The position numbers were made by a program, and so were the translations under genes. The notes under the pieces are model-generated. The model did not search any database. It was not told the origin of the DNA and saw only the letters and a list, made by a program, of their open reading frames with translations. Positions 1-17,348 of a DNA stretch of 20,796 nt are shown here, piece after piece; within the stretch, counting starts at the first letter, position 1, and every line of letters begins with the position of its first letter. This DNA is from a virus, in IMG/VR virus record IMGVR_UViG_3300030419_003137, positions 1 through 20,796 of that record; one strand, 5' to 3'.

Positions 1-3000
1 GCCCGATGGTTCAGCAGGCCACGGTGAGGGAGCATTCCAAAAATGTGTTGCTTATAATTACCCTGCTTGTCCATTAAGATTGGACGAGAAACAAGTTGCA
101 TTACATAATAATCCAGCATCAATAAGAGGAAATATTTCTAGAGAAAGAGAATTAAGATTACTTGAAGGATATGGTCCTGATGGTCAAGGACCAATACCAC
201 CAATAGTTATCGGGTGGGGAGATTGTTCCAGTGATCTGGGGGGTGGGTCTGCTTGGTGGGCAATAACATCTGAATGTGGAGGAAAGGCTTGTGCTTGGTC
301 GAGTGACACCAATTCAAGTGTTTTAGGTTCCATGGCTGTGCCCATACAGGGATGTGGTAATCAAATTCAAGCCCCGATAAGCAATGTCCAGCAGGGTTAT
401 CTCACAGGTGGTGCAGGATCTGATCACAATACAAATGTTCCTTGTGAAATAGAAATGGGTTGCGGAAAGAGAACATTTGGACCTGGTAGTGGTAATGAGG
501 GTGTTCAGGGTTGGTGTGCTATGGTTGAAGATAATATAGATCCATCGAGTCCTTCACCTGAAATAGTAAGAATGGATATTACAAGTTGTCAAACTCGATT
601 AAATGAACTTCATAATGAAGATAATAACATTGTTGGGGCACGTTGGGAATTACTTTCGTCTACCATGTTAGACATGGATGAAAGACACTGGGAAGCAGAC
701 TGCAATCAATGTTTATATCCACACTATAAATTTGATGATGATGAACTTAATGTTCCTGGCGAAGAAATCGATACTCAAACTACTGATGGAACTAGTAAGT
801 TGGGTTCATGTTGTATTCGACTTGGTGATAGAGGTTGGCCTGGAAATCCAGACGAACCACTTGAAAGAATATGGACATCGCCTTGGGGTGATGGTTCAAC
901 CCTCAAAACAAAAACAGACACTTTAGTAATAGAGGATTCTGGAGCAGAAGATTCAAATCGAACTGACAGAGAGTGGCACGCTCCTTGGTTTAGGTCAGAT
1001 CGAAACTCTGAATTTGATGAAGGCTTTCCAAGTGGTTGGTCATACGCACCAAACTTTAGATGGGAACTTGCAGGTGATGTTGCATGGGGACCACAACTTG
1101 TTGGTTGGGTATGTGGATTTAATTCACCTGCATATCAGACAGCAAAGGCAATATATGATACAGCAACACAAAGTTGGAAAAAGACTATTAACTATTGTTT
1201 CGATTCCTTTACATGTCCTGCTCTATGGAAAGAACCAACAGAAGAAAATCTAACTGAGGCTGGTTTATGGGGACATGAAGAATGTGTTGAACCTACATTA
1301 TGGGGATACGGTGGATTAGCAACAGGAACATTTGCACAGGTCGGCGACCAGCCGTGGAATATTCCAGATGAAGATAGTCCTCTTGGTAGAGTTTGTTATG
1401 GTGTATTTGTAAATGCTAAAAATATATGGGATATTAGTTCGAGTGCAATAGAACAAGTTCCAGTGCCTGGTTTACAAGCACCAATAGACTGTGAGCAATG
1501 TTCTTTAGGTTATATCAATGCACCAGATGATGGAAGTCAACAATACATAGGTTTAGGTCATAAAGATGATGTGGCACCAAATGTTTGGACGCCTGGTGCT
1601 GCAATGACAGCAAGAAACTTAAGAGGTGCGCCACACATTAATAGTACTTGCATGGCTCCCGAAATAGAAATTAAAAATCATAATACACTTTGGACTGACT
1701 GGGACGGAAATATTTCACTTTCACAAGATTCGGTATTCGGCATTTGCAACAATCCAGACGGTGGTTCCTATGAAGATGGAAATTATGTAGATGGTGGTGG
1801 GGTTCATCCTGATGCTTTAATTCGTTATGGGGAGAGTGACAAGGATCAAGGTTACTTCCCATGTAGATGTACTGCTAGAAACTTAACACATTATACTGAC
1901 ACATCATATAAAGATCATATCGATCCAAACAGTGAAGGGTGGATGGGTTATCCAACACCTGCTTTATCAGATCTTCATCATGCACACCACGTTGAATCTC
2001 TTTTCTCATGGCAACTTCAATATCATATTCATCAGAATCCTTTCTCATGGCAAGAAGGAGATTATATAAGTGATCCAAGATTACCAGGCGTTTGTGCATT
2101 AAAGCATAACTTTGTCCCATCACTTGTTGTAGAACTATCTCCACAGGAAGGTACAGAGATCGATCTAGATGAAGAATCATTGGACTGGAAACAGAGATTT
2201 GATTGGAAGAGAAGAACCGTAAATCAAGCACACGGAGATCATCATCACACAACAAGTTATTTAAGAAATTATGCATCAGATGATGAATTTACGAATTTAA
2301 ATAATCCAATAGAAAGTAGTAATATGATAGGATCATGTTGCTACTATGATGGTGAAAATAAAAAATATACAGCAGTAGATGGAATATCACAAACAGACTG
2401 CGAAAATAATAAGTTGGGAATTTGGGATAGAGATAAAACATCAGATTATAGAGTAAAACACAAAGAACCATTGTGTTGTAAAACTTGTAGTAAATATGCA
2501 AGAACAGATTATGAAAAACAACAAATTAATAGATCACAAAGAGTAACATTTAGATCTATGGTTCATAATAACTCTGTAATTGCTGTTTCTCCCACCAAAA
2601 AGGACATAGAAGAAAATTATTCTTTATTACAAGAGTTAATTTCTATCTGCGAAAATTGTGATCATTCTAATGAATATAATTTGAACGCTTGTAGTAGAGT
2701 TGCTCAAATTATTAAGATATATGAAGACGAGAAAGACATCTCTTGTTTTAATTCTAGAAAAGAAGGATTAGAAGACACATTAAAAGAATATTACAGATGT
2801 AAGTGTACTTTACTAGATGAAATTGTATCAAATCTATTACAAGTCTATAAATTAAATGTTTGTGTTAAAGACATAAATCCAAGTTCTGTAGAAGAAACAA
2901 CACTCATGTCTTCTATAAACGAATTATTATCAAACTACAAAATATTAGAAGATAATTGTTACGAGATAATCAAAGATCATGATGATATCATTTCTACAAA

Positions 3001-3718
3001 AGAAAAACAGAAAGGATGTTGTTGCCAATACATTAAGCCTGGAAGCGTTGAGTTTATTAATATATCAAGTGGAACGAAAATATATAACGGTGGTGATCTA
3101 AGAAAATGTGGAAATATGACTAAGTTTGAATGTAGCAAACTACAAGCATATGATACAGTTTGGAATAGATGTGTAGATGATTGTTCAGACAATTGTAGAG
3201 ATAATGATAATCCAGATAATTGTCAATTATGTAATAGTAAAATTAATAATACTAACATTCCTTACTCTAAAGAAATATTAACTGCAATACAAGAAGAACT
3301 TAATGAAGAAGAAGGAACGCCAATAAGATCATGTTGCTTTGGAAGAACACCAACAAGAGAAGAAGTTCCAAGAGGAACTGATCCAGAGAGATATACAATA
3401 TACGATTGTGCTTATGGATTTACTAAAAATGAGTGTCATAATTCTAAATGGTTAGATGATGACAAAATTAAATCTACTCGATGGAGAGAAGATGATTGTG
3501 GTAAATGCACTTGTTGTAAAGATGGAGAAAGATATTGTTTACAGTCTGGTGGATGTAATCCAACCAACAGGTCTTCCAGTCCAGATTCATATATTCCTGA
3601 ATCGAGTGGTGTTTCTTCTGTTTCCCCAACACAAACTGGAGGGGCATCAACACAAAGATCTAGTTCTCAATCTCCTGCTCCGCAAACTGGAACATCATCT
3701 GGAGGATATGGGTATTAA
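1..3718 (+). CDS. Large cysteine-containing phage protein, 5' end outside the window
   Basis: The frame is open from base 2 to the TAA at 3716-3718, so at least 1238 residues are visible. The gene starts upstream: the codons before the TTG at 80 are open and read as protein, with two cysteines, so that TTG is not the start. The first ~2280 bases encode a Trp/Gly/Pro/Asp-rich region with scattered cysteines and one Cys-Cys pair (809). From about 2330 on, the protein is Asn/Lys/Glu/Ser-rich with Cys-Cys sites at 2336, 2474, 3017 (triple), 3332 and 3512. These are followed by single cysteines, a Trp and a closing C-x2-C, the same pattern as in the next four genes. About 2590-2990 looks alpha-helical or coiled-coil. 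The last ~50 residues are a Ser/Thr/Pro/Gly tail. Function is not recognised. Neighbours suggest a virion surface or fibre protein (inference). Confidence 0.85.
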   Translation, partial: PDGSAGHGEGAFQKCVAYNYPACPLRLDEKQVALHNNPASIRGNISRERELRLLEGYGPDGQGPIPPIVIGWGDCSSDLGGGSAWWAITSECGGKACAWSSDTNSSVLGSMAVPIQGCGNQIQAPISNVQQGYLTGGAGSDHNTNVPCEIEMGCGKRTFGPGSGNEGVQGWCAMVEDNIDPSSPSPEIVRMDITSCQTRLNELHNEDNNIVGARWELLSSTMLDMDERHWEADCNQCLYPHYKFDDDELNVPGEEIDTQTTDGTSKLGSCCIRLGDRGWPGNPDEPLERIWTSPWGDGSTLKTKTDTLVIEDSGAEDSNRTDREWHAPWFRSDRNSEFDEGFPSGWSYAPNFRWELAGDVAWGPQLVGWVCGFNSPAYQTAKAIYDTATQSWKKTINYCFDSFTCPALWKEPTEENLTEAGLWGHEECVEPTLWGYGGLATGTFAQVGDQPWNIPDEDSPLGRVCYGVFVNAKNIWDISSSAIEQVPVPGLQAPIDCEQCSLGYINAPDDGSQQYIGLGHKDDVAPNVWTPGAAMTARNLRGAPHINSTCMAPEIEIKNHNTLWTDWDGNISLSQDSVFGICNNPDGGSYEDGNYVDGGGVHPDALIRYGESDKDQGYFPCRCTARNLTHYTDTSYKDHIDPNSEGWMGYPTPALSDLHHAHHVESLFSWQLQYHIHQNPFSWQEGDYISDPRLPGVCALKHNFVPSLVVELSPQEGTEIDLDEESLDWKQRFDWKRRTVNQAHGDHHHTTSYLRNYASDDEFTNLNNPIESSNMIGSCCYYDGENKKYTAVDGISQTDCENNKLGIWDRDKTSDYRVKHKEPLCCKTCSKYARTDYEKQQINRSQRVTFRSMVHNNSVIAVSPTKKDIEENYSLLQELISICENCDHSNEYNLNACSRVAQIIKIYEDEKDISCFNSRKEGLEDTLKEYYRCKCTLLDEIVSNLLQVYKLNVCVKDINPSSVEETTLMSSINELLSNYKILEDNCYEIIKDHDDIISTKEKQKGCCCQYIKPGSVEFINISSGTKIYNGGDLRKCGNMTKFECSKLQAYDTVWNRCVDDCSDNCRDNDNPDNCQLCNSKINNTNIPYSKEILTAIQEELNEEEGTPIRSCCFGRTPTREEVPRGTDPERYTIYDCAYGFTKNECHNSKWLDDDKIKSTRWREDDCGKCTCCKDGERYCLQSGGCNPTNRSSSPDSYIPESSGVSSVSPTQTGGASTQRSSSQSPAPQTGTSSGGYGY

Positions 3719-3746
3719 CTCATATATATTATTAAAAGGGTAACAT

Positions 3747-6700
3747 ATGCCTCTAGGATATACCGCATATTTTGGAACAAGTACAATAAGGCCTTATACT
3801 GGACCTACAGGGGCTCAAGGTAATCCTATAACTGGAACAGGTGGTATAAAAGGTCCATGTGGTCCTTCCCCACTGTCTACTGATGCTCCTACAGGACCAA
3901 CTGGTATTACTGGATTTGCTCTTGTTGGAACTTATTATCAGCACGATCCAGAAAAACCTGCATATGGTTATTATGTTTTAAGATTCTCCGATCAAGCGGG
4001 TAATGAAGTTACCGCTGCCCCAAGGGGACTGACTGGTAAAGCAGGACCCGTTTCTCGTTGGGCAGATGCTGACGGTGTTATTCATGATCCAGAAAATGCA
4101 AACTTTTATAATGTAGGAACTGGTGTTACTGCAATATTTGCTGGAGTAACCTATGGTTCTTTAGATCCAAATAGACTTGCTCCTTTTTATGGTGTGAGTG
4201 GAGCAACTCTTAGTTTTAGAAGATTGGGTGTTAGCGGTGACTTGGTTTTCTATTCCGATTTGAAAACAATAGGAACAGGTCCTACTTATGATGTAATTGG
4301 TATTTCTGGACCTATTCCTGAAGAATTATATGGGACGGTAACAGGACAATCTGTTGGTGAACTTGCATATCTTTCTGACAAGAAAAATACTAAAGATGCA
4401 CATGGATTAACTTTCACAGACGACTCAACAATCATTCCTCCAGGCTTACCATCAGGTGGATTAACTTGGGGAACTATCACACCTAAACTTATAAACACAA
4501 CTAACTTTTTCCACACACATGGTAATGAAGTAGAGGGAGTTAATAAAGATCCTTTTATTATTAATACAGATCAGGGAGGTGTGCATGTAATTCATACTCC
4601 ATTCACTCTTTCTGGTATTACTTTTGATAAACATACAACTAAAAATCCAATTGCTGTGGCACCATCTTGGGTTTCTGCACATTTAGATCTCTCTGGAAAT
4701 ACCGCAAATTACGGAGAAGCAGTAAACACCACCCTCATAATCAAGAATGGACCATTGGGGGTATCATTTGGTGGAGATTTTTACTTTGATCCACATAATA
4801 ATAAATTAGCAGAAGGTATTAATATTGTAAATTGTTTATCTTATGATGATGCTGAATCTTGGTTATGCACTATAGCAGGAAATAAATTTGGATTTACTGG
4901 AGATACTTCTGAAGTTATTCAATATGGTGCTTGTTGTAATAGCACTCCAGAGAGTTTTTCGTTTGGTGACTGTCAAGAATTTTTAACTTTAGGTGAATGT
5001 AATCAAAAAGAAGATTATGATTTTTATCTAAACTCTTCTTGTGGAGAGAGTCCATGTTCTGCGGTTCCTATCATTGGTTCTTGTTGTCTGAATAAAGATC
5101 CACTAATTCCTGATGAAACATTGTGCGTAGATGGTGTAGAAAAAATAGTATGTCAAACTTTTGGTGGTGTGTTTAGACTAGGTATTCCATGTAATAGTCA
5201 GTATCCTTGTGGTAATTCTTGTGATGAAGATTTTGGCGAGACAGGATCGTGTTGTAAATTTGATGAAACGGGATCTTATATTGGTTGCGAAGATGATTTA
5301 ACTTTAGAGGAATGTATAGAAAGTGGAATATTAAATGTATATAATGGTGATGGAAGTTTTTGTATTAATATAGATTGTTGTTCAATTGAAACTAGAGTGG
5401 GCGCCTGCTGTACAGATATTGGTGTTTGTACAGACCAAACTACTCCCGTAGAATGTTCTCACCTTGGTGGAGTTTATCAAGGTCACAATACAACATGTTC
5501 GGGTGTGGTATGTGCTTGTACTTCTGGTGGTGGTGAATCTCCACCAGAATGTACTGAAGATTATGATTGTGACGGTAATCCCAATGGTCCACGCTGTTGT
5601 TTTGGAGAGTGTACAGATTTACCTAGTTGTGATCCAGTTACCACTATGCCCTGTTGTCTCGGTAATGGTACTTGTGTAGATGTTGAAAATGAATCAGAAT
5701 GTACTGATTATGGTGGAACTATAGTCGGGACACAAGGAATATTATGCTCTACTATAGATTGTGAAGGAGGAACTGGAATTCTTCATCCTTGTTGTATTCA
5801 ATTAACAGGAGGAGATTATACATGTCAATTACTTGATTCACCTACTTGTTTTGATGTTGGTGGAACTTTTTATCCAAACCAATCTCAATGTTACGAAATA
5901 CCGTGTGGTTCAATTGGTGATCCCGACTGTACGGAGGATGCAAATTGTCCCCCAGGCCAATGTTGTATTAATGGATTATGTGAAGATTGTGATTCACCTC
6001 CTGGCTCGGGAACTCCTGGCGGTGGCGGTAGAACAGTAGGAAAATGTTGTAATGCAATTGGATTCCCAGGCTATGATAAAGGAAGAAGACCATGCTGTGA
6101 AGATCATATGGGAATACTTAGTGGAGATTCTGTTGGCGAATTACATCCTGCCATGTCAAACGATGGGTCAATTTCAACTGATATTTATGATCCCGAAACA
6201 GGAGAAATTACACCGTTTTGTTCGGAAGAATTAAATTGGCACTACATAACGGATTATGTTTATAACCCCAATCTCCAAGCACATCCAGTATGTGATTGTG
6301 TTGATGGACTCACAGAGAATGAATGCACTGAAAGGTTTGGTGATGAAGCAAGATGGGAAGAAGGATTACAATGTACAGAATATATTAACAACCAAGGCAG
6401 TGCATACAAAACTTGTGGACCGTATAAAGCATTAATCGGATTAGCATATCAAAAAGAATGTATAGATTCTAATTTATGTAATTCTGGAACCATTCGTGAA
6501 TGGTATCCATGTATGGGACAAATATACATGAGATGTAATGTGTGGACCGACAGTGATGCAACCAATAGTAGTGGATGGATTGGTATTGGAAGTAGATATA
6601 ATGATGGAAATTACTTTCTTCAAACATTTGGTGAATATTGTCCTATCTGCGGACCATGTTATGGTTATGGTGAAACATTCGATCCATCTAATTCAAACGT

Positions 6701-6899
6701 ACCAGCGCCACCATGTTACGAAAATTCAGAAGGTACTGGGGGTGCATGGTGTACTGGACTTGAATGGGTAGATGAGTGGTCTTGTACTTGTTGTGATGAA
6801 ACACTATACCCTGATGGTTGTGTCTGTGATCAACCCTTCTGTGATGGTGGTTATAGTATAGATGATTCAGATGGACCAATAATAAACCCTCAACCTTGA
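3747..6899 (+). CDS. Collagen-like, cysteine-repeat phage structural protein (probable fibre or adhesin)
   Basis: 1050 residues from the ATG at 3747, preceded by AAAAGGG at 3734-3740. Residues 19-56 carry a short interrupted Gly-x-y tract (GPTGAQGNP, GPTGITG), a collagen-like signature common in phage fibres. Residues 60-390 are a beta-rich, low-cysteine region with no recognised fold. It includes an HTH triplet (His256, His258) and ends in a segment resembling fibre-tip or trimeric domains. Residues 394-1030 are a chain of cysteine modules, with Cys-Cys pairs near 396, 446, 502, 554, 636, 682 and 767. Two inner units (602-628 and 728-748) have the pattern C-x5-C-x(4-8)-CC-x(3-4)-C-x(2-5)-C, reminiscent of small disulfide-rich domains. 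There is no signal peptide or membrane segment. The architecture (N-terminal shaft, beta-rich body, cysteine modules) and the position upstream of gp13 suggest a tail or neck fibre. The function is inferred; the gene call itself is firm. Confidence 0.9.
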   Translation: MPLGYTAYFGTSTIRPYTGPTGAQGNPITGTGGIKGPCGPSPLSTDAPTGPTGITGFALVGTYYQHDPEKPAYGYYVLRFSDQAGNEVTAAPRGLTGKAGPVSRWADADGVIHDPENANFYNVGTGVTAIFAGVTYGSLDPNRLAPFYGVSGATLSFRRLGVSGDLVFYSDLKTIGTGPTYDVIGISGPIPEELYGTVTGQSVGELAYLSDKKNTKDAHGLTFTDDSTIIPPGLPSGGLTWGTITPKLINTTNFFHTHGNEVEGVNKDPFIINTDQGGVHVIHTPFTLSGITFDKHTTKNPIAVAPSWVSAHLDLSGNTANYGEAVNTTLIIKNGPLGVSFGGDFYFDPHNNKLAEGINIVNCLSYDDAESWLCTIAGNKFGFTGDTSEVIQYGACCNSTPESFSFGDCQEFLTLGECNQKEDYDFYLNSSCGESPCSAVPIIGSCCLNKDPLIPDETLCVDGVEKIVCQTFGGVFRLGIPCNSQYPCGNSCDEDFGETGSCCKFDETGSYIGCEDDLTLEECIESGILNVYNGDGSFCINIDCCSIETRVGACCTDIGVCTDQTTPVECSHLGGVYQGHNTTCSGVVCACTSGGGESPPECTEDYDCDGNPNGPRCCFGECTDLPSCDPVTTMPCCLGNGTCVDVENESECTDYGGTIVGTQGILCSTIDCEGGTGILHPCCIQLTGGDYTCQLLDSPTCFDVGGTFYPNQSQCYEIPCGSIGDPDCTEDANCPPGQCCINGLCEDCDSPPGSGTPGGGGRTVGKCCNAIGFPGYDKGRRPCCEDHMGILSGDSVGELHPAMSNDGSISTDIYDPETGEITPFCSEELNWHYITDYVYNPNLQAHPVCDCVDGLTENECTERFGDEARWEEGLQCTEYINNQGSAYKTCGPYKALIGLAYQKECIDSNLCNSGTIREWYPCMGQIYMRCNVWTDSDATNSSGWIGIGSRYNDGNYFLQTFGEYCPICGPCYGYGETFDPSNSNVPAPPCYENSEGTGGAWCTGLEWVDEWSCTCCDETLYPDGCVCDQPFCDGGYSIDDSDGPIINPQP

Positions 6900-6918
6900 T
6901 AGGAAACGGAATACCATA

Positions 6919-7473
6919 ATGACAACATTTAGACGAAGAAAAAAATTTGCACCGTGCTGTTTTGAAAATGGAGAATGTAGGGAAATTGAAAGTGGTCGTC
7001 TAAGGGCAGATCTTGAGTGTGAAAGACTAGGAGGTACTCCTGGCTATTTAAACACTCCATGTTCAGATCTATGCTGTGGTAAAGATTTAAATTATTTTGA
7101 ATTAGATGATCTCGATGAAAGAGCAAGATCTCCAGAATCGGATGATTACGAAAATTGTAAAAATAGATCTCTAGTAAAAAGAAAGAATTGTTTCGAAAAT
7201 TGTAAGAATTCCTCAGACAAAAAAGAATGCTATAAAACATGTCATTGTAACAATTCTATTCGAATGCAGCAATGTATAAGAGAACATAGAGATGAATTTG
7301 AAAATTGGCGAGAGTTTTGTGAAGAAGCAAAAAGTTCAGTTTGTTCTACTATTCCTCAGTGTAGAGGTGTTAATGATCCAGTGTATTTAGAAAGACCATG
7401 TTATTGTAAATGTAATTGTAATGAACCAATTTGTTCTGCATGTAAGGGAACTATTTTCGATATTTTCGGTTAA
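6919..7473 (+). CDS. Small cysteine-rich protein with one N-terminal repeat and a duplicated C-terminal module
   Basis: 184 residues with 23 cysteines. The N-terminus is basic (FRRRKK). Residues 12-53 form one copy of the shared module: Cys-Cys, C20, C34, a Gly-Gly step, C48, then C52-C53. Residues 71-181 are a second cysteine domain, about 60% identical by eye to the C-terminus of the following gene. Its core reads GVNDPVYL, one variable residue, then RPCYCKCNCNEP. A conserved SIRMQ-x-C and an aromatic FxxW..FC segment lie before it. The ribosome-binding site is weak (AGGA at 6901-6904, 14 bases from the ATG, or ACGGA nearer). The alternating C-x-C-x-C could bind metal or form disulfides; the sequence does not decide. 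Function unknown. It lies in the cysteine-rich block and is probably a virion or accessory assembly protein. Confidence 0.88.
   Translation: MTTFRRRKKFAPCCFENGECREIESGRLRADLECERLGGTPGYLNTPCSDLCCGKDLNYFELDDLDERARSPESDDYENCKNRSLVKRKNCFENCKNSSDKKECYKTCHCNNSIRMQQCIREHRDEFENWREFCEEAKSSVCSTIPQCRGVNDPVYLERPCYCKCNCNEPICSACKGTIFDIFG
7129..7461 (+). repeat. C-terminal cysteine module, copy 1
   Basis: Encodes residues 71-181 of the 184-residue protein. About 71 of 112 aligned residues match copy 2 (9533-9862), counted by eye with one single-residue gap. All cysteines are conserved, as are SIRMQ, GVNDPVYL, RPCYCKCNCNEP and the GTIFD end. DNA similarity is clearly lower than in the leader that follows each copy, apart from the block coding for GVNDPVYL to CNEP. 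Confidence 0.9.
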
Positions 7474-7485
7474 TAAAACTTATAA

Positions 7486-7526
7486 GTCTAAATAATATAA
7501 AGAACATAAGGCAACAAACATGAGTA
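7486..7526 (+). promoter_or_regulatory. Repeated leader, copy 1 (late-promoter-like plus ribosome-binding site)
   Basis: A 41-base stretch spanning the gap before the gene at 7520 and its first codons. It is identical to 9878-9918 except at one base (7516). It holds TCTAAATA (7487-7494) and TATAAAGA (7496-7503), each 7/8 to the T4 late promoter TATAAATA, and AAGG (7508-7511), 8-10 bases before the ATG. A sigma-gp55-type late promoter with a very short leader is the simplest reading. The conservation may also include a translational element. Confidence 0.5.
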
Positions 7527-9877
7527 AACATCAATCATACACAGAAAAAACAAATATAATAAATCCTCCTCTTCGGAGAAAGGATTATTATAATTTAGTT
7601 CCATCTAGAAAAACTATTTTATCTGGAATAATGTGTGATGAAAATGGATGTCATTATATTACAGATTTTTATGATTATATAAAAAGAGGCGGCTCTACCA
7701 ATACTACTTTCTATCCATACCTAAACAACATATATGATCGTTTAGAAAAGGGATCTATAACTTTCGATCAATCCAATAAAGACCATTTTGTTGGAATGTA
7801 TGTTGATGGAAATAAACATGGTTTTGAAGGAAGATTAACAGTCGAACAAATGTTTGCTGCTCATAGTGGAGATTCTTCAACACTAACTAAAAATGATATA
7901 AGAGCGATGATTGTTTCATATGAGGTAGAAAAATCATTTAAAAACGAAAGAAATTGTATATGTGATATTTTAAGTATTAGACAATTTCCAACAGAGTCAT
8001 ATAATTTAATATTTGATTATGTTACTTCTCCTATAGAAAGTGGATGTGTAAACATTACTGTCCCAAAAGGAACTATAAAACAAGTAGCAAAACGAATAGG
8101 TGCAACACCAACTCGTTCTGGTATTTGTGATAATGAAAACTTTATTTCAAATACAACTGTAGATTCTAGATCTTTATCATCCAAGACACACACAAAAACA
8201 CCAGAAGAAATAGTTGGTATGTGTCATTGTCCTGATGGTTCTACTGTTAAAACAAGTAAAGGTTTATGTAGATCATTGCATGGTGAATTTAAAAAAATAG
8301 ATTTTGATTTTATTGATAATATCTATACAAAAAGAAAAGATACAAAATCAATTTCATATAAAAGGGATGATTATAGAAAGTTACCAAATTTAACAAACAA
8401 AACATATATTGATGATATTACTATACCTTCTTCAAATACAATTGATTCTAGTTTAATTAATACTTGTTGTCCCGATCTTTGTATTGATTGTTTACTTGAT
8501 GCGATAAGAGAAAGAGAAACTGGTGAAGATGATGGATGTAATGCAAGAGATGAATGTGATGGTATGGGTTGTGGAGGAAATTGTGAAGCATGTGGTTGTA
8601 GTAAACCTTGGACTAATCAAAAGAAAGATAAATGTTGGTCATGCGGTCCTTATAAAATAAAAAGAGATTTATTTGAAAATGCAAGCAAGGCAGATGAAGC
8701 CCCATGTCGGGTTCTTAAAAACTTAAATTGGGAAAAGGAACTTTGCAATCCATGTCAAGGAACCAAAAAAGAAGTTAAAAAGTGTTGTGAAAGAAAACAT
8801 GAAATAAGTAAACTTGTTATAAGATGTTATTGGAGTTACTATACAAGAAATGGTAATTGTAAAAATGGACATGGTAAGTGCATGTCAACAAATTCAGACG
8901 GTAAATGTTTTACTTGCGAAGATCTTATAAGACAATTTACTAGTGGTCCTTGTGGTCATAATCATTCACCCAGAAGTAAATCTGCAAAATATTGGAAGAG
9001 TATAAAAAATATTTTATGTAGATTAAGTGGAAGATGTAAAGATTGTGGAAATAGTATTTCTAAATGTGGTGCGAATAAACACACTCCTGTTTATGATTCT
9101 GCATGTTCACCTAAAGCAATTAATGAAAGAACCATGTTTAACAATAAAATATGTGACACAGATGAAAGTGGTTGCGGAGACTCTTTATCTCGTAGTAAAT
9201 TAGGAACATGTTGTGTTCGTGCAGATTGTAGTCATATTGATAAAAGTAATAAAACGGCAAAATGTTGGGAATGTGTTGGTATGCCTCTAAAGAAATGTGA
9301 ATGTGCTGCATATGTTGGTGAAACTAGTTGTAAAGAAGGTTTTAGTGAAACTTGGATGTGGAAACCAGAAGAGGATAGTATCGGTGCTTGTGGATCTTGT
9401 CTTTGTAATATTCCAGAATCAAGAGATTATCAAATAGATGAACATTGTAATAAACCTCAAATTGCAAATAGTTTAAAAAGAAAATTCAGGGAACGAAAGA
9501 TAAATGAATTTAAAGTTGGAAAAAGAGGGTCATCTCCTGAAAAAGATAATTACGAAAATTGTAAAAAAACTTCTATAAAACAGAGAAAAAAATGTTTTGA
9601 GGACTGCAAAAAAAGTGCTAATAGAGACTGCTTTAAATCATGTCATTGTAATCATTCTATTCGAATGCAAACGTGCATGAGTAAACATAAAGATGAATTT
9701 CCAACTTGGAAAGATTTTTGTAGAGAATCTCATGCTCAGGTTTGTGCTACTATTACTCAATGCAGTGGCGTTAATGATCCAGTATACTTAAATAGACCAT
9801 GTTATTGTAAATGTAATTGTAATGAACCAGATTGTCCTGATTGTTATGGAACCATTTTTGATGATTGGAAACTTTAG
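7520..9877 (+). CDS. Large lysine- and cysteine-rich protein, unknown function
   Basis: 785 residues starting with ATG at 7520, 10 bases after AAGG of the repeated leader. Residues 1-205 are a cysteine-poor domain I do not recognise. Residues 235-255 hold a partial cysteine repeat (CHCPDG). Residues 316-630 are dense in cysteines with many C-x2-C pairs (for example C320/C323, C355/C358/C360, C372/C375, C464/C467, C506/C509) in a Lys/Asn-rich background. Residues 561-629 form a module that recurs near the C-terminus of the next gene: LGTCC, then C-x-E-C, C-x-C-A, S-C, W-x-P-E-E and C-x-C. Residues 672-781 are the ~110-residue module shared with the preceding gene. Zinc-ribbon-like C-x2-C spacing is present, but no known zinc-finger family is clear. 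The protein is probably a paralogue assembled from shared modules. Its role is unknown. Confidence 0.88.
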   Translation: MSKHQSYTEKTNIINPPLRRKDYYNLVPSRKTILSGIMCDENGCHYITDFYDYIKRGGSTNTTFYPYLNNIYDRLEKGSITFDQSNKDHFVGMYVDGNKHGFEGRLTVEQMFAAHSGDSSTLTKNDIRAMIVSYEVEKSFKNERNCICDILSIRQFPTESYNLIFDYVTSPIESGCVNITVPKGTIKQVAKRIGATPTRSGICDNENFISNTTVDSRSLSSKTHTKTPEEIVGMCHCPDGSTVKTSKGLCRSLHGEFKKIDFDFIDNIYTKRKDTKSISYKRDDYRKLPNLTNKTYIDDITIPSSNTIDSSLINTCCPDLCIDCLLDAIRERETGEDDGCNARDECDGMGCGGNCEACGCSKPWTNQKKDKCWSCGPYKIKRDLFENASKADEAPCRVLKNLNWEKELCNPCQGTKKEVKKCCERKHEISKLVIRCYWSYYTRNGNCKNGHGKCMSTNSDGKCFTCEDLIRQFTSGPCGHNHSPRSKSAKYWKSIKNILCRLSGRCKDCGNSISKCGANKHTPVYDSACSPKAINERTMFNNKICDTDESGCGDSLSRSKLGTCCVRADCSHIDKSNKTAKCWECVGMPLKKCECAAYVGETSCKEGFSETWMWKPEEDSIGACGSCLCNIPESRDYQIDEHCNKPQIANSLKRKFRERKINEFKVGKRGSSPEKDNYENCKKTSIKQRKKCFEDCKKSANRDCFKSCHCNHSIRMQTCMSKHKDEFPTWKDFCRESHAQVCATITQCSGVNDPVYLNRPCYCKCNCNEPDCPDCYGTIFDDWKL
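9200..9406 (+). repeat. LGTCC module, copy 1
   Basis: Encodes residues 561-629 of the 785-residue protein. It shares with 12273-12461 the order LGTCC, C, C-x-E-C, C-E-C-A, S-C, W-x-P-E-E and C-x-C with similar spacing. The protein match is visible by eye; DNA similarity is low, indicating an old duplication or convergent shuffling of one domain. Confidence 0.75.
9533..9862 (+). repeat. C-terminal cysteine module, copy 2
   Basis: Encodes residues 672-781 of the 785-residue protein and is the paralogous partner of 7129-7461. As in copy 1, it ends a gene and is followed within a few bases by the 41-base leader, so module plus leader form one duplicated unit about 2.4 kb apart. Confidence 0.9.
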
Positions 9878-9918
9878 GTCTAAATAATATAAAGAACATA
9901 AGGCAACTAACATGAGTA
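9878..9918 (+). promoter_or_regulatory. Repeated leader, copy 2 (late-promoter-like plus ribosome-binding site)
   Basis: Second copy of the 41-base leader, beginning immediately after the TAG of the upstream gene and ending two codons into the gene at 9912. It contains TCTAAATA (9879-9886), TATAAAGA (9888-9895) and AAGG before the ATG. The single difference from copy 1 is T at 9908. The match stops a few bases after the ATG, so the shared unit is the leader plus ATGAGTA rather than the gene body. Confidence 0.5.
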
Positions 9919-12557
9919 TAAATTTTAGAACAAGATCAGTTACATATTTTGCGAAACAAGAATCCATGATGGGTGCTTGTTGTCATGCTGGTGGTTGTTC
10001 TTATACAAATGCAAAAGATTGTGGACAAAGAACTAATAGTACATTTCACCACCATTTAAAATGTGAAGATGTTGATTGCAATCTTGGTGTTTGTTGTACC
10101 AATGGAATTTGTTCTGAAACAACACTGGAAGGTTGTGTATCACAAAATGGCACATGGGTTGGTGGAGAGTTTGATTGTTCTAGTTTTGATTGTTCAAGAA
10201 TATCATCAGAACCTTTGCAGGCATGTTGTCTTGATTTAAATACATGTAAGGATCTGAAACCATCAGAGTGTTTGGAATTAGGCGGTAGTCCTAGAGGTCC
10301 AAATAGTACATGTTCTATTATAGATGCTGCTGGTGGTTGTGGTATTACAGGGGCAACCGCTCATGGTGTCTGTTGTGTTGATGGTAATTGTTTAGAAGTA
10401 GAAGGAAGAGATCCAAACGGAACCTTAAGAGTTGTTGGTTATACTGCTGGTGATTGTTCTGCTCTTGGTGGTTTATGGGGAGGATCAGGTAGCACTTGCG
10501 GTTCAGGAAACACCTTTGATATGAGTTGGCCTTGTTCATGGCCAACAGGTGCATGTTGTTTTGGTAATTCTCCAGTCGGAGGAATTACATATTGTGATTC
10601 TGGATTAACTTATGGTGATTGTTTAAATCCTCCATCATTAGGTGGTAGTGGTGGTGCTGGTTGGTTATATGGTGTTACATGTGATCAAGTAACAGAAATA
10701 ACTTCACCTACTGGGGAACCTGTTTCTTGCACCCTTACGGATGAAGAAAGTGGTGCTTGTTGTATTCCAGAATATGTGCAATTTAATCTAGAGGGACAAT
10801 ATGAAAATGAAACTTTAATTGTTGATTATATCTGTTATCAAACTTCAATTGGTGCATGTACATCTGTTGGTGGTATTTTTAGTGGGGGTGTTGGTTGTGA
10901 TGAAATAGATTGTTGTTCTTTGCATGGTGATTGTACTGGAAATATGGTTGGTTGCTGTGGTCAATACACGGAAAGTATGGATGGTAGTCAAATTATCAGA
11001 GAATGTCTTGAGAATGAAAGTATAACATCATGTCAGGCTAAAAAAGATTCTTGGTGGCAAAATATAGAAGATCCAAATGATTGGAGAGTTATTCGTTTTG
11101 GATTTTCAAATGGTTGCGAAGAATTAGAATCATTAGCAATATGTCCATCAGACAATCCATACGGAGATGAGTATCAGGGTCTTTGTTGTGGATTTATGCC
11201 TCCTTGGTCGAGTGATAATCCATCAGTTTGTGAATTGGAATTTGTACCAGATCCAGCAATGTGGGACGATATCGGTTTCAGTGGAACATGTCCGTTACAT
11301 CCAGAAAATCATGCACCTGGCTATATTTGGACTGAACTTTTTGCCATGAAAACAAATCCCTTAATGTCATGTGAAATTTGTTCGAATTTTAAAATGGGAG
11401 CATGTTGTTCAAATGGAAACTGTTCTGATACAATTGAAACACATTGTTCTGGAGATTTTTATGAGGGATTAAACTGTTCGGATAATTGTGGTTTTATTCC
11501 TTGTTGTGACGGTACTGGAAATGAGGTAAAGATTTGCGTAAATGAAACTTTAGTTGATGCAGACGAACATTCTCTTAACTCTTATTCTCATTGCTTCGAT
11601 AAATATAGTTTCTCTGTTAGTCAATTTAATCAAGAAACTGCAATAAGCATAATAGACAGTGTATATGAAAATGTAGAAGCATACAACATTTATGAAAATC
11701 CATTAATAGATTGTGAAAATTGTGGTTCTCCTTGTTCAAGAAAAAGAGGGACTTGCTGTTGGAACGGTAAACCAATTTACAATACCACTAGAGATGAATG
11801 TAATCTTTTCGGTGGTGTTTATATGGGTTGTGAAGGTATTCCTTATAATAAAGCATCAATTGGTGGATTAGATTATGACACACCAAATATTGATTGTAGT
11901 ACAGTTTATTATGGAGCAGATACACCAACAAATGTAAGAGCGGTTGCTATACCAAAACACGGAAAACATAGATTTAGAAGAGGCCCATTTAAAAGAGATA
12001 ATATAGAGTTATGTGCAGCGAGTCAAGAAAACTGGACAGAATTAGAATGGCAAAATGGATCTGCACTTGGGGAAGATGGTGCAGATATGAATATAATTAC
12101 TGGAATGGATCAACTTCCCACAAAACCCATAGTTCAAATTTTCTGGAATTCTAGCAACACCACTGAAAGAAATTATAGATCGGGTAGAGAAGGAAATATA
12201 TTAAGAGATTTAGATGATGCCTCTATATGTAATGATGTTAATTTACAAGATTGTCCTTGGCCTTTAGATAAACTTGGAACTTGTTGTATTACAAATAATA
12301 GTTGTGGGGATGACACTAGATTAAATTCATTAGAGCATAAATGCTATGAGTGTCATCCAGAATTAACAACTCAGTGTGAATGTGCAAGGCTAAATAATCA
12401 AAGATCATGTAATAATATGAAATGGATTCCAGAGGAAATAGATCCTTCTAAATGTCCATGTCAGGATATAAATAATTCAGAGTATCAAACTAACTTCAAG
12501 TGTGTGACGGAAAGTACCTCCGTTAATGATAACACTTTGAATGAAGGAGAGAATTAA
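9912..12557 (+). CDS. Multi-repeat cysteine-rich protein (about 12 Cys-Cys modules)
   Basis: 881 residues. This gene shows the module most cleanly: G-x-C-C, 3-9 residues, C, a Thr/Ser-led segment, C, Gly-Gly-x-aromatic-x-Gly, C, 3-5 residues, C. Copies begin near residues 21, 59, 103, 152, 213, 281, 346, 424, 497, 529, 613 and 789; the later ones are more degenerate and contain insertions. GACC-type repeats of this kind are, from memory, also seen in large surface proteins of some bacteria such as planctomycetes, but no function is established that I can name. Residues 788-850 match the module in the preceding gene. A basic patch lies at 681-695 (KHGKHRFRRGPFKR). The start is preceded by the second copy of the 41-base leader (AAGG, 10 bases upstream). 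The stop TAA directly abuts the GTG of the protease gene, suggesting translational coupling. Probable extracellular or virion-surface protein (inference). Confidence 0.9.
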   Translation: MSINFRTRSVTYFAKQESMMGACCHAGGCSYTNAKDCGQRTNSTFHHHLKCEDVDCNLGVCCTNGICSETTLEGCVSQNGTWVGGEFDCSSFDCSRISSEPLQACCLDLNTCKDLKPSECLELGGSPRGPNSTCSIIDAAGGCGITGATAHGVCCVDGNCLEVEGRDPNGTLRVVGYTAGDCSALGGLWGGSGSTCGSGNTFDMSWPCSWPTGACCFGNSPVGGITYCDSGLTYGDCLNPPSLGGSGGAGWLYGVTCDQVTEITSPTGEPVSCTLTDEESGACCIPEYVQFNLEGQYENETLIVDYICYQTSIGACTSVGGIFSGGVGCDEIDCCSLHGDCTGNMVGCCGQYTESMDGSQIIRECLENESITSCQAKKDSWWQNIEDPNDWRVIRFGFSNGCEELESLAICPSDNPYGDEYQGLCCGFMPPWSSDNPSVCELEFVPDPAMWDDIGFSGTCPLHPENHAPGYIWTELFAMKTNPLMSCEICSNFKMGACCSNGNCSDTIETHCSGDFYEGLNCSDNCGFIPCCDGTGNEVKICVNETLVDADEHSLNSYSHCFDKYSFSVSQFNQETAISIIDSVYENVEAYNIYENPLIDCENCGSPCSRKRGTCCWNGKPIYNTTRDECNLFGGVYMGCEGIPYNKASIGGLDYDTPNIDCSTVYYGADTPTNVRAVAIPKHGKHRFRRGPFKRDNIELCAASQENWTELEWQNGSALGEDGADMNIITGMDQLPTKPIVQIFWNSSNTTERNYRSGREGNILRDLDDASICNDVNLQDCPWPLDKLGTCCITNNSCGDDTRLNSLEHKCYECHPELTTQCECARLNNQRSCNNMKWIPEEIDPSKCPCQDINNSEYQTNFKCVTESTSVNDNTLNEGEN
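12273..12461 (+). repeat. LGTCC module, copy 2
   Basis: Encodes residues 788-850 near the C-terminus of the 881-residue protein. It is the counterpart of 9200-9406. Key matches are LGTCC, KC-x-EC, QCECA, RSC, KWIPEE and CPC. Confidence 0.75.
12544..12549 (+). promoter_or_regulatory. Ribosome-binding site of the protease/LRR gene inside the upstream gene
   Basis: AAGGAG lies 8 bases before the GTG at 12558, within the last codons of the 881-residue gene. Its strength and spacing fix the GTG as the start although it directly abuts the preceding TAA. No separate leader is present, so translation probably depends on the upstream gene or on termination-reinitiation. Confidence 0.75.
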
Positions 12558-15500
12558 GTGGCAAATAAATTTCACAATGATATAGGTTATGATCAAAATA
12601 CAGAATGTATTTGGTTATACAATAATAACACAACGCCAACAATCTCTGGATTAAATACTAGTAATAGATGGTATCAGGCTGGTGTAAATTTTAATTGTAT
12701 CTCTCCACCAAATACAATAAAAGGAGGAAGTGAGGGACTTGCACAGGTTGCTCAGCCTGGTATGGGAAACAATGGTTGGCAAAAAAATGCAAATCCTATC
12801 ATTGATTGTGATGGTGACGGTGTTGGTCTTTGTTCCAATAATTCGTCGGGAGCAAATTGTAATGGACATATGATGTATGGTCCTAGAGTTTATTTAATAT
12901 CTCCATACTTAGCAATTGCATCACAGCATTATAGACCACATTTTACTCAATGCGGAGAGGGTGATGATGGTATTGAAGATACTATTAAATTTTGGTACGA
13001 AGAGGGTTCATATGATGCAAAAGTAGAAGCATATAGATTAATTAAAAATGAACAATCTGGTGGTGGGGGTTGTTATCAATATAATCCAGGCGCATGTAAT
13101 GTTCCTTCGGGTGTTGCTGATATATCCTCTGATAATGAACAAATACTTCTTGCATGTATGCCTGATAGAGTTCTTATTAAGTTTAAAGAACCAGTTCCAG
13201 CATTTATAAAACCAACTAAATTAGTAACTGAAAGATTTTTAAACAAATATATGAACGAGTTTGAAAATCCAGAAACAGCACAAAATAATAGACTTTTAGT
13301 TATGGTTGATCAATATCAAAGACCACTCATTAGAAGAGATGCTTTTACTTTTGAAAACGCAGATCAACCAGAAACTGCTGACTACTTAGTAAATGGATCT
13401 TCCTGCCCAGCAGATCAACAAATAGGAGTTATTCCAGACAATAATTATCATATTAATATAAACACTTATGGTGCTGGAATATCGACTATAGGAGGAGAGT
13501 GGTTATCCTCATCAGTCAAAGATAAGTATAGTATCTCTACTGTCTTTGGAAATTTTACAACAAAAACTAGATCAGGTGGGTCATTTTTCCCTGGCATGGG
13601 AAGTTATATACCATCTTCTGATTATATTCCAAATGAAAAATCAATACCCGTTGACTATGATTTGCGGGATGGAACTTCAAGAGATTCAACAACTGAAGCA
13701 GTTTGGGCTGGAGATTCGGGGTCTGCTAGTTTTATAGTTATGAATGATGGAACTACTGGTTTTATTGGACTGACTAATACTATTGGGGGTTCTATAGATT
13801 ATTGGGGAAATTATGGATGGGAGGCTGCTGTTAAAGCAATATGTGATGAATATGAAATTCCTCATCCAGAGATGATCGATGAAGATCATGATTTTACAGA
13901 GTACACCACTCCGCTTTCTTCTAGACCATCATTAGGTTATAAAATTTATAAGTCTGCAATTTCCGAGACTGGCCCATTTTATGATATAACAAGTCAAATT
14001 GCACCACAAACAACTTCAAATTTAATGAATAATGATTTAACTGGATATCCTTGCATAGACCCGTCTGTGCCTTGTTATACAATCCATGAAAATTTCATAG
14101 ATGAATATGTAGGCGAAGAAAACAATTATTGGTATTATATAACCACTCTTAACCAAGTCGATTCTACTGTTATAGAATCTCAACCAAGTGATGTAATATC
14201 TGTTAATATACCTCAGAGTTGTAATTATTCAGATGAAAGACAACTGTTCATTAGTAGAACATCTGCAAATGATGGTTTTTCTTCTCCATATCAAAATCCA
14301 GATTACCCAACAACAAGTGAAGATATGGGTAGAGATATTCTTTGTATAGGATGGAATATGGGAGACAATACATATTCTATTCCTTTGTTGGGGTTTTCTG
14401 ATAACTTTAATTCTCCAATAAAACCAAGATTACCCATGTCTCAACTTCCTCTTTTCTATAGTGTAGAAGGAGGTAATAATTATAATAATGGGATCCAGAG
14501 AAAATTACCATTACCTATTGATAATACATCATACCAATATGTTATGGGTCACAAATATGACATAGGTGAAACAGAAGGAAATAATAAGTCAAACAATAAT
14601 TTGTATATAGATTACAATTTTGAAGATTTTGAAGTTTATCAGAGTTGGAAGAATTCTGTTGAAAGTTTAAACTTTACTAGATTCTATAGAGAAGATGGTG
14701 AAAATAGAGGGAAATATGAACCGTTTTTCCATTCTCGAATATTTCCAGGCATATTTATAAACCTAAAAACTATTTTAATTAATCCTGCTAGATATGGAAA
14801 TGGTAGATCTACTTGGTCAGAGGATTGGTCATATGGAGAATCTGGTCAGATAAATGGAATAGAAGAAAGTTATATTGGGTTTTATATGGGAGAGTATTTG
14901 AAGAATGATATTGCTGAAAAAAATTCAGAAACATTAGACACACTAATTGCAAAGGATTCATCTATGGATACTTTACATCAACAATTAGAATATTTTAATA
15001 CAATTGGTTTATCTTTATCTTATCTTGATATGTCAAACAATAATCTTTACAGAATTGATTTTGATAATTCTAGTTTAAGTAATCTCACACATTTAAATCT
15101 TCAAAACAATAATATTTGTTCTGATGCATCATACGATGGAAAGTGGTTAAATGATGCTTCTTTCCCAAATAAAATTAATTCCTTAGACTTGTCGGGTGCA
15201 GGTTCTCTTGAATATTTAAATGTCAAAGACAATCCAAATTTAGAATTGATTCTACCACCATCAATGAATAATTTATTATACTTTGATGCATCAAACACTA
15301 ATGTTGGTGTGAATAATCCTCTTATTATTAACAGTTCATCTATTCGACAATTTATTTTAACAAATACATCTACAGAACATGTGACTTTTAAAAATAGTTT
15401 AAATCTAGAGAACATCTCAATATCAAATACAAATATATCGAAAATAAAAACAATAAAAGGAAATCCAACTGGATGTTCCCCATTTTCTGCATTAAAATAT

Positions 15501-15989
15501 ATTGATGCTCAATATTCAAGTTTAACTTCTTTGAATTTAAGATATTCTAATTCTCAAGATTGGTCTTCTAGAACAAATCCAACAAATGAAGAATCTTCAT
15601 ATGATTATAATGAGTTTGGAGATGTTTCATATAAATTAACAGATATTAATTTGGAAAATTCTTCCAATCTAAAAAGACTATATTTACCAGATCCGTCTGT
15701 AAATGATAGTAGTTGTATTAGTGGTGAACAGAAACTTTTAGAAACTATTGATGTTAGAGGATGTAAATTGGGTGTTAATGATAGCCTAGAATTTTTCTTA
15801 AGTCAAGAAGCATTTGATCCAAAAAATTATCCTGTTGGACATACATTGACTGTAAATGCAATTAATAATAAAGATTCTGTTACAGGAAATAATGTTGAAA
15901 CCAATTTAATGTTTATATATAATTTGGTGGATAGTTGGTCTTATGAGGGTAAAACTCTTATATTGAATGTAGATTTGACAACGACTTAA
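12558..15989 (+). CDS. Trypsin-like serine protease with FN3-like and leucine-rich-repeat domains
   Basis: 1143 residues from a GTG that follows the previous stop codon with no gap; AAGGAG at 12544-12549 is 8 bases upstream and supports this start. Residues ~105-425 look like a chymotrypsin/trypsin-fold (S1-type) protease. The candidate triad is His124 (IASQH, cf. TAAHC), Asp203 (DRVLIKF followed by a Pro-Val-Pro segment, cf. DIALLKL) and Ser387 in GDSGS, followed by a beta-strand and a GFIGLTN segment. The His-Asp and Asp-Ser gaps (79 and 184 residues) are longer than in trypsin (45 and 93), so insertions are implied. Residues ~458-552 resemble a fibronectin type III domain (YKIYKS, YYITTLNQ, ES-x-PSD). 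Residues ~815-1080 are leucine-rich repeats: LSYLDMSNNNL, LTHLNLQNNNI, INSLDLSGAGSL, LENISISNTNI, LTDINLENSSNL. There is no signal peptide. A virion-borne or self-processing protease is possible; its substrate is unknown. Confidence 0.88.
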   Translation: MANKFHNDIGYDQNTECIWLYNNNTTPTISGLNTSNRWYQAGVNFNCISPPNTIKGGSEGLAQVAQPGMGNNGWQKNANPIIDCDGDGVGLCSNNSSGANCNGHMMYGPRVYLISPYLAIASQHYRPHFTQCGEGDDGIEDTIKFWYEEGSYDAKVEAYRLIKNEQSGGGGCYQYNPGACNVPSGVADISSDNEQILLACMPDRVLIKFKEPVPAFIKPTKLVTERFLNKYMNEFENPETAQNNRLLVMVDQYQRPLIRRDAFTFENADQPETADYLVNGSSCPADQQIGVIPDNNYHININTYGAGISTIGGEWLSSSVKDKYSISTVFGNFTTKTRSGGSFFPGMGSYIPSSDYIPNEKSIPVDYDLRDGTSRDSTTEAVWAGDSGSASFIVMNDGTTGFIGLTNTIGGSIDYWGNYGWEAAVKAICDEYEIPHPEMIDEDHDFTEYTTPLSSRPSLGYKIYKSAISETGPFYDITSQIAPQTTSNLMNNDLTGYPCIDPSVPCYTIHENFIDEYVGEENNYWYYITTLNQVDSTVIESQPSDVISVNIPQSCNYSDERQLFISRTSANDGFSSPYQNPDYPTTSEDMGRDILCIGWNMGDNTYSIPLLGFSDNFNSPIKPRLPMSQLPLFYSVEGGNNYNNGIQRKLPLPIDNTSYQYVMGHKYDIGETEGNNKSNNNLYIDYNFEDFEVYQSWKNSVESLNFTRFYREDGENRGKYEPFFHSRIFPGIFINLKTILINPARYGNGRSTWSEDWSYGESGQINGIEESYIGFYMGEYLKNDIAEKNSETLDTLIAKDSSMDTLHQQLEYFNTIGLSLSYLDMSNNNLYRIDFDNSSLSNLTHLNLQNNNICSDASYDGKWLNDASFPNKINSLDLSGAGSLEYLNVKDNPNLELILPPSMNNLLYFDASNTNVGVNNPLIINSSSIRQFILTNTSTEHVTFKNSLNLENISISNTNISKIKTIKGNPTGCSPFSALKYIDAQYSSLTSLNLRYSNSQDWSSRTNPTNEESSYDYNEFGDVSYKLTDINLENSSNLKRLYLPDPSVNDSSCISGEQKLLETIDVRGCKLGVNDSLEFFLSQEAFDPKNYPVGHTLTVNAINNKDSVTGNNVETNLMFIYNLVDSWSYEGKTLILNVDLTTT

Positions 15990-15997
15990 TTTATTTT

Positions 15998-16002
15998 GGA
16001 GG
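15998..16002 (+). promoter_or_regulatory. Ribosome-binding site that decides the start at 16011
   Basis: GGAGG in the 21-base gap after the protease/LRR gene is 8 bases upstream of ATG 16011. The in-frame TTG at 15996 overlaps this site and so cannot use it. Confidence 0.8.
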
Positions 16003-16010
16003 TTTTGAAT

Positions 16011-16493
16011 ATGGAAGAAAAGGATAAAAATTTTAAAAATTCATCCTTTAAAGAAAAGATTGGAATGGCAAAAAATTACGCGGGGTCTTTGATGTCTCGC
16101 GGACTAAACAATAAAAAAGCAGACAAAAGAACAAAACAACTTCGTGTTTTAAGTTGTTTAGGTGATGATGGAGAACTTATTCCATGTGAATATTTACGAG
16201 ATAGTAAAGAAAAACCAGGCGAAAAATATTGCGGAGGATGTGGTTGTGGAGATAGAAAAGCAACATGGTTAAGTGCAGTATCTGAAGATTATGGAAAATT
16301 GGATTATCCAAAAGTAGTCTGTCCTTTAAATATGCCTGGTTTCGCAAATTACGAACAAAGTGAACCAGATGAAGCAGAGGAACCCATTACTAGAAGATAT
16401 TATATCGAACAAATGAGTGAGGATAGAATCGATAGCATTGTGGTAAATTCACCAGAACCACCAGAGATTAAAAAGAAGGATACTAAAAAATAA
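16011..16493 (+). CDS. Small protein with CxxCxC motif, unknown function
   Basis: 160 residues. I place the start at ATG 16011, 8 bases after GGAGG (15998-16002). An in-frame TTG at 15996 would sit on the ribosome-binding site itself, so it is rejected. The N-terminal 45 residues are Lys-rich and likely helical. Six cysteines follow: C49, C59, the cluster C74-x2-C77-x-C79 within YCGGCGCGDRKATWL, and C104 in a KLDYPKVVCPLNMPGF segment. The C-terminal ~50 residues are acidic, then basic. The compact arrangement suggests metal binding (zinc or iron-sulfur), but no named family is recognised. It lies between the protease/LRR gene and gp13, roughly where T4 has wac (fibritin), but it has no coiled-coil fibritin features. 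Its cysteine pattern differs from the repeated Cys-Cys modules upstream. Confidence 0.85.
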   Translation: MEEKDKNFKNSSFKEKIGMAKNYAGSLMSRGLNNKKADKRTKQLRVLSCLGDDGELIPCEYLRDSKEKPGEKYCGGCGCGDRKATWLSAVSEDYGKLDYPKVVCPLNMPGFANYEQSEPDEAEEPITRRYYIEQMSEDRIDSIVVNSPEPPEIKKKDTKK

Positions 16494-16538: not shown

Positions 16539-17348
16539 ATGGCAGCAGCACCCTATTCAACAGATACTTTGATTGATTATGCTTTTAGAAGACTAGGTTC
16601 TCCAGTAATTGATATAAATGTATCAAGAGAACAAGCGGAAGAGCGAGTAAATGATGGTCTTCAATTTTTCTATGAAAGACATTTTGATGGTGTAGAAAAA
16701 CACTATTATAGTCATAAAGTAACTTCAGATAATATTACCAATGGATATATCGATACCAGCGGCTTAACCGCAGGTAGTGGTGGTGGATATACTGGCGCAC
16801 CATCTGGTGACAATATTGTTAGTGTGACAAAAGTTCTTCCGTTAGGAGCGTCAAACGCTAACATGTTTAATGTTCGTTACCAGATGTCATTAAATGATTA
16901 TTTTGGAATTAATAGAAATACAAACTATGGGGTTGCATTAGGTCTTGCATCATACGATTCTACAAAAAGATTTATTAATTTAGTTGAGCAATTTTTCGAT
17001 ACTGAGAAAAATTTTAGATTTAGTAAAGTTACTAATAAACTATACATTGATATGGATTGGAGTGAAGATATAGAAGCAAATGATTATATTCTTTTTGAAG
17101 CATATTCGATTCTTGATCCAACAGTTTACACTGAAATTTATAATGATAGACTATTAAAAGAATATATAACTGCTTTAATAAAAAGACAGTGGGGTGCAAA
17201 TCTCTCAAAGTTTGAGGGAGTACAATTGCCTGGAGGAGTTTCTCTAAGAGGGGCAGAGATATTCTCAGAAGCGAATGAAGAGGTTCAGAGAATAGAAGAA
17301 AGAGTTCTAATGGAATACGAACTTCCAATCGATTTCATGGTAGGATAA
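16539..17348 (+). CDS. 13: Neck protein gp13 (T4-like head completion protein)
   Basis: 269 residues (T4 gp13 is about 309). Gp13 is a neck component added to the filled head with gp14, allowing tail attachment. The N-terminal DTLIDYAFRRLGSPVIDINV followed by a segment with EQAEERVNDGLQFFYERHFDG is typical of T4-like gp13, as is the C-terminal part with LLKEYITALIKRQWGANLSK, the LPGGVSLRGAEI segment and an ELPIDFMVG end. A glycine-rich loop lies at residues 74-90 (TSGLTAGSGGGYTGAPSG region). A strong AAAGGAGA (16526-16533) precedes the ATG by 5 bases. The gene is followed after 3 bases by gp14, and the order 13-14-15-16-17 matches T4 exactly, which supports the call. Confidence 0.95.
   Translation: MAAAPYSTDTLIDYAFRRLGSPVIDINVSREQAEERVNDGLQFFYERHFDGVEKHYYSHKVTSDNITNGYIDTSGLTAGSGGGYTGAPSGDNIVSVTKVLPLGASNANMFNVRYQMSLNDYFGINRNTNYGVALGLASYDSTKRFINLVEQFFDTEKNFRFSKVTNKLYIDMDWSEDIEANDYILFEAYSILDPTVYTEIYNDRLLKEYITALIKRQWGANLSKFEGVQLPGGVSLRGAEIFSEANEEVQRIEERVLMEYELPIDFMVG

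Follow-up and report, generated by a model that had tools for sequence, protein, structure and literature searches.

A six-cysteine repeat in the late gene cluster of an uncultured T4-like phage, probably a disulfide mini-domain of virion surface proteins

Five consecutive cysteine-rich genes lying ahead of the neck genes of an uncultured T4-like phage are best explained, with a probability that we put at about two in three, as a block encoding virion surface adhesins or fibres made of arrays of disulfide mini-domains. The DNA that we analysed, hereafter the window, is a fragment of this phage, 20,796 nucleotides long and taken from an IMG/VR virus record, in which the main open reading frames (ORFs) all lie on the plus strand. 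Its right-hand genes follow, on that one strand, the T4 neck and packaging order gp13-gp14-gp15-gp16-gp17: a gp13-type neck protein or head-tail adaptor (16539..17348, +; phrog_211, E 7.6e-35), the gp14 neck protein (17352..18242, +; PF11649, E 5e-37), gp15 (PF16724), gp16 (PF11053) and the N-terminal part of the terminase gp17. The gp17 shares about 62% identity with the terminases of cyanomyoviruses, which places the phage among the T4-like ones but in none of the cultured groups; no enrichment of the T4 late promoter TATAAATA was seen. Phage structural proteins are usually cysteine-poor, and gp13 to gp17 contain 0-1.5% cysteine, whereas the five ORFs of the block, A to E, contain 4.8-12.5%, with 60, 79, 23, 67 and 82 cysteines, respectively.

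The repeat itself is, in our view, nearly certain to be real. Its consensus reads CC-x4-10-C-x7-8-C-x12-14-C-x4-C, with GG-aromatic-x-G ahead of the fifth cysteine, and the units span 36-45 residues (38 positions in the profile); the loop of 4-10 residues ahead of C3 holds for most units. This profile, seeded on ten units of the window and iterated over the ORFs of relatives, collected 213 domains in 54 proteins and admitted no shuffled or reversed decoy in iterations 2-3, while 100 shuffles of each window protein yielded a total of 0-4 spurious units per protein. The cysteine module that the initial annotation had proposed in this phage context is thus confirmed by a profile clear of decoys. 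Nor does the spacing of cysteines vary at random between copies: among the 157 complete phage units, that is, those with exactly six cysteines, C3 and C4 are separated by 7 or 8 residues in 148, and C5 and C6 by 4 residues in 147. Compared with shuffles of equal composition, the CC doublet is in excess in A (p 0.04), in B (p 0.003) and in E (p 0.008), and is not so in C and D. No Pfam, NCBIfam or PHROG model was found for the unit, and no earlier description of the repeat came to light in the full-text literature, mostly outside subscription journals.

All features of the block lie on the plus strand. ORF E (9912..12557, 881 aa) carries seven clear units and a weak one: E1 (9972..10079, 22.0 bits), E2 (10086..10193, 27.7 bits), E3 (10221..10322, 34.8 bits), E4 (10365..10505, 18.7 bits), which has an insertion between C3 and C4, the weak E5 (10548..10688, 4.4 bits), E6 (10752..10913, 25.4 bits), also with an insertion, E7 (11397..11489, 15.8 bits) and the four-cysteine form E8 (11748..11831, 22.2 bits). 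Relatives of E with conserved cysteines occur in at least six contigs (L073, L004, L019, L005, L176, L178). ORF B (3747..6899, 1050 aa) opens with a collagen-like Gly-x-y N-terminus, continues with a cysteine-poor middle and then presents six units, B1 (4926..5057, 20.3 bits), B2 (5076..5204, 21.0 bits), B3 (5244..5378, 17.9 bits), B4 (5400..5513, 37.6 bits), the cleanest copy, B5 (5649..5762, 26.9 bits) and B6 (5787..5906, 23.2 bits); its relatives, in G002 and G014, are 45-48% identical. These profile counts mean that the earlier figures of about twelve copies in E and about seven in B were too high. ORF C (6919..7473, 184 aa) holds one unit (6955-7077), in agreement with the single copy first proposed, followed by a C-terminal cysteine domain (7111..7461) that is 62% identical over 117 aa to positions 9515-9862 in ORF D (7520..9877, 785 aa; E 1e-48). 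This second domain is distinct from the six-cysteine unit, and its presence in both proteins suggests a duplication or a domain exchange inside the block. ORF A (2..3718), at least 1238 aa long and open at the 5' edge of the window, contains one partial unit (2330-2428, 12.4 bits) and a marginal one, and has weak relatives in G002 and G014 only. It follows that the view of five genes built from a common repeat stands clearly for B, C and E; of the diverged copies expected in A and D, those in A are weakly supported, and D has no unit above the profile threshold and is tied to the others through the C-terminal domain of C alone.

Between the block and gp13 lie two further ORFs. ORF F (12558..15989, +; 1143 aa), which adjoins E, is cysteine-poor, and its leucine-rich repeats and GDSG motif make it look like a trypsin-type peptidase fused to the repeats. 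Relatives retain the motif wholly or nearly (GDSGS, GDSGL, GDSSS), a histidine lies upstream of it, and in two contigs (L019, L005) the C-terminal part of the F relative is fused to E-type repeats. ORF G (15996..16493, +; 165 aa) is a conserved non-repeat protein with an invariant CxxCxC, in full CGxCGCGD, and served as our marker. In at least 578 environmental contigs its gene lies next to gp13; neither Pfam nor PHROG gave a match to it, and it was not found in any of 50,697 phage records. The proteins of the block likewise have no curated family match at usable significance in Pfam, NCBIfam or PHROG, and no recognised fibre domain; Pfam matches such as those to TEX19, MoeA_C and EGF1_RECK were discarded, as their scores did not reach the curated cut-offs.

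The same unit occurs in bacteria. A DNA pattern covering the first half of the unit only retrieved sequences from Planctomycetota (mostly Phycisphaerae), Candidatus Eisenbacteria and a few others, and the phage-only profile then recognised 125 ORFs among them, with a best E-value of 9e-149; the sole decoy below E 1 scored 0.02. The second half, which lay outside the fetch pattern, is equally conserved, C5 being present in 850 of 851 aligned units. The repeat of Planctomycetota and Candidatus Eisenbacteria can be written GACC-x-x-D-G-x-C-x7-C-x3-GG-x-aromatic-x-G-x4-C-x4-C, and the phage units agree with this six-cysteine repeat in their conserved spacing and in GG-aromatic-x-G; no Pfam or NCBIfam model covers it. 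The proteins differ in their setting. Those of bacteria usually combine a signal-peptide-like start with extra domains (Reprolysin-like, CARDB, Ig-like), whereas those of phages have no signal peptide, belong to a virion gene cluster and are more variable in their loops and in C6; a crude hydropathy test assigned a likely signal peptide to 69 of the 113 repeat proteins from bacteria and to none of the 114 from phages. One bacterial protein (L245:386-6796, -) combines more than 30 tandem units with an Ig-like anchor domain, a CARDB-like domain and a Reprolysin-like metallopeptidase region.

The position of the block among viral relatives speaks to its function. A peptide pattern of E found no direct relatives in viral contigs; relatives were reached through gp14 (80 of them), through G, with matches in at least 578 contigs, and through the alignment of E. 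Of the 57 G loci with 6 kb or more of sequence upstream, 53 have units there, in the same orientation as G, and none has any downstream or on the opposite strand; 17 of 22 longer records also contain units. Single proteins of these relatives contain up to 217 cysteines. No cultured counterpart was found among 50,697 phage records, where tblastn with E, B, G and two cysteine-rich proteins of relatives gave no match. In the longer record G001, baseplate wedge genes (phrog_232, phrog_219, phrog_438) are followed by a tail-fibre gene (phrog_4492, E 2e-43), the cysteine block, G and gp13; in such longer relatives the block sits between baseplate or tail-fibre genes and gp13. The first proteins of the G001 block show weak collagen or tail-fibre matches at their N-termini: two B-like proteins match collagen-like phage tail fibres (PHROGs 5073, 6320, 366, 1806) at E 2.6e-6 and above, and B of the window, which matches no PHROG, also opens with Gly-x-y triplets. 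Collagen-like N-termini are typical of fibres; the remainder of the B-like proteins, unlike these fibres, consists of cysteine repeats and domains of no recognised kind. In a few gp14 relatives (G003, G004), genes resembling VrlC and gp8 are present and the region ahead of gp13 is cysteine-poor. In G003, where the block is otherwise absent, a 913-aa protein with 14.1% cysteine and one unit is encoded far from gp13 (L090:14887-17625, -).

A cultured point of comparison is the cyanophage Syn19, in which VrlC and a YadA-domain protein are encoded upstream of gp13, at the same place relative to gp8, gp13 and gp14. Both blocks encode giant proteins whose function is tentative or without assignment, but those of Syn19 are almost devoid of cysteine (6 in 2430 aa and 0 in 2162 aa), which bears out the initial remark that such a cysteine load is unusual for phage structural genes. 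Cyanomyoviruses are known to be without wac, g10, g11, g12, g34, g35 and g37, and unnamed structural proteins may stand in for some of the missing tail fibres (PMC2984593). Taken on its own, the identification of the block as a virion adhesin appears likely to us, its place in the virion and its binding of a receptor being inferred. The block might instead encode non-virion late proteins, for instance proteins set free when the cell lyses or exposed on the surface of the infected cell, an idea in keeping with the apparent secretion of the bacterial relatives and with the metallopeptidase-like domain of one of them (L245); we regard it as unlikely, since the phage proteins are without signal peptides, keep a constant place amid baseplate, fibre and neck genes and have collagen-like N-termini as fibres do.

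A further resemblance concerns animals. When sequences of the PDB were compared with the phage-only alignment, four matches were obtained at E up to 1, all of them iRhom1 or iRhom2 chains (best 1.4e-4); the bacteria-only alignment returned the identical four chains alone (best 0.02), and the mixed alignment reached iRhom1 at E 4.2e-6, with both CC units matched and iRhoms as the sole match below E 0.4. A reversed control, which is rough in that it had fewer rows and was entered by hand, gave other proteins at 0.02 and no iRhom. The matched region, the iRhom homology domain (PDB 8snl, 9xy4) that animals have in iRhom1 and iRhom2, contains two CC units, and both fit the profile. This domain is extracellular and has 8 disulfides (PMC11248996, PMC12184519), its units lie inside a single domain of 243 residues (PMC12184519), and no similar structure was found by its authors (PMC11248996). 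In iRhoms the units lie within a membrane pseudoprotease and the first is without the standard second half, whereas the phages have arrays, in proteins without membrane segments. We found no membrane-like segment in A-F, no rhomboid family match and no placement of units between TM1 and TM2 of a rhomboid core; the phage proteins are therefore not iRhoms, and the unit alone is held in common. Common descent of the phage and iRhom units is plausible on these alignments, although it is not proven because the match is short and cysteine spacing can converge.

Modelled alone from 76 aligned phage units, with B4 as the input, the unit is predicted by AlphaFold2 to adopt a confident single fold, beta-beta-alpha-beta (pLDDT 93; 93.4 for B4). 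The claim of a common fold is upheld to that extent, but the tandem model of E (residues 1-334, seven sequences) was poor, with a mean pLDDT of 49, and was set aside as unreliable. Foldseek with the 38-residue model, a very short query, gave no PDB match at E up to 10 and two meaningless viral matches. The initial annotation left the choice between a disulfide and a metal-bound fold, and the manner in which cysteines are lost argues for the former. Cysteines are also the best conserved residues: along residues 1-334 of E, seven relatives leave 34 of 36 cysteines unchanged but only 58 of the 298 residues of other kinds (Fisher p 2e-19). Among units with C2 substituted, 9 of 12 from bacteria (background 81/843, p 2e-7) and 7 of 8 from phages (background 128/369, p 0.004) also have no C6. 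The p-values are optimistic because related units are not independent. All 14 phage units without C3 have an even number of cysteines, 12 of them four; C3 and C5 are jointly lost in one unit, and C4 is lost in two only, both also without C1 and apparently from one protein. Two observations speak against this reading: more than one phage unit in three has no C6, and the cysteine number is odd in 19 of 76 short CC-to-CC segments. From the joint losses, the most likely pairing would be C1-C4, C2-C6 and C3-C5.

Cysteines that are conserved and lost in pairs favour disulfides over metal, and together with the signal-peptide-bearing bacterial relatives and the iRhom match they lead us to consider that the cysteines of the unit very probably form disulfides; the metal part of the earlier claim is less likely. 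Cytoplasmic synthesis is unfavourable to disulfides, and the phage proteins, having no signal peptide, are presumably made in a reducing cytoplasm, which together with the invariant CxxCxC of the neighbouring G would suit zinc-ribbon-like structural sites that fold there. It seems rather improbable that the clusters are of this kind: cysteines are lost in specific pairs, conserved histidine is almost absent, and an adjacent CC and six cysteines per unit make an atypical layout for a zinc site. The unit also recurs in bacterial proteins with likely signal peptides and in the extracellular, disulfide-bonded iRhom domains (PMC11248996). The sulfhydryl oxidase Evr1/Alr was not found, but the positive control was silent too. 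The only thioredoxin match, a weak one with a Pfam score at the cut-off, is the N-terminus of an ORF that also has a glutamine-synthetase-like domain (L084:12387-13829, +, equal to G002:46387-47829). As for an artefact of composition, in which independent cysteine-rich sequences would share chance CC motifs without common ancestry, the unenriched CC of C and D and the differing loop lengths would fit it, but the decoy-clean profile, the fixed C3-C4 and C5-C6 spacings and the invariant cysteines kept along long alignments of E relatives give it a negligible probability, and it is already refuted for B, C and E.

It is thus tempting to propose that the block encodes large virion surface proteins, either adhesins or tail-fibre and collar components, whose exposed parts would be strings of 38-residue beta-beta-alpha-beta mini-domains, each stapled by three disulfides, most likely in the pairing given above. 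The chains would be made in the host cytoplasm, as expected of proteins with no signal peptide, and would probably be oxidised during or after lysis. The outcome may be rigid, protease-resistant and easily shuffled arms that would contact the next host. We also entertain, tentatively and at somewhat less than even odds, a wider scenario in which the unit would be an ancient mobile disulfide fold, common by descent to planctomycete secreted proteins, this T4-like clade and the iRhom homology domain; a repeat of bacteria or phages would then be the source of the ectodomain of animal iRhoms, and the exposed adhesin arrays of the phages would be oxidised after lysis. The kinship with iRhoms, if confirmed, would be the most surprising part of this work.

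What is new here is a repeat family for which we found no description, put to use in phage adhesin or fibre modules that are themselves of a known kind. We found no Pfam, NCBIfam or PHROG model of the unit, so that at present it goes unannotated in many proteins of bacteria and viruses. A large clade, seen here from environmental contigs alone, carries from tens to more than 200 cysteines per protein at its probable host-facing end, and the question arises as to how arms that depend on disulfides are assembled by a virus whose proteins are made in a reducing cytoplasm. With a block placed where genes for tail fibres would be expected, these uncultured T4-like phages appear to build host-facing parts from a disulfide mini-domain that has no entry in the protein-family libraries.
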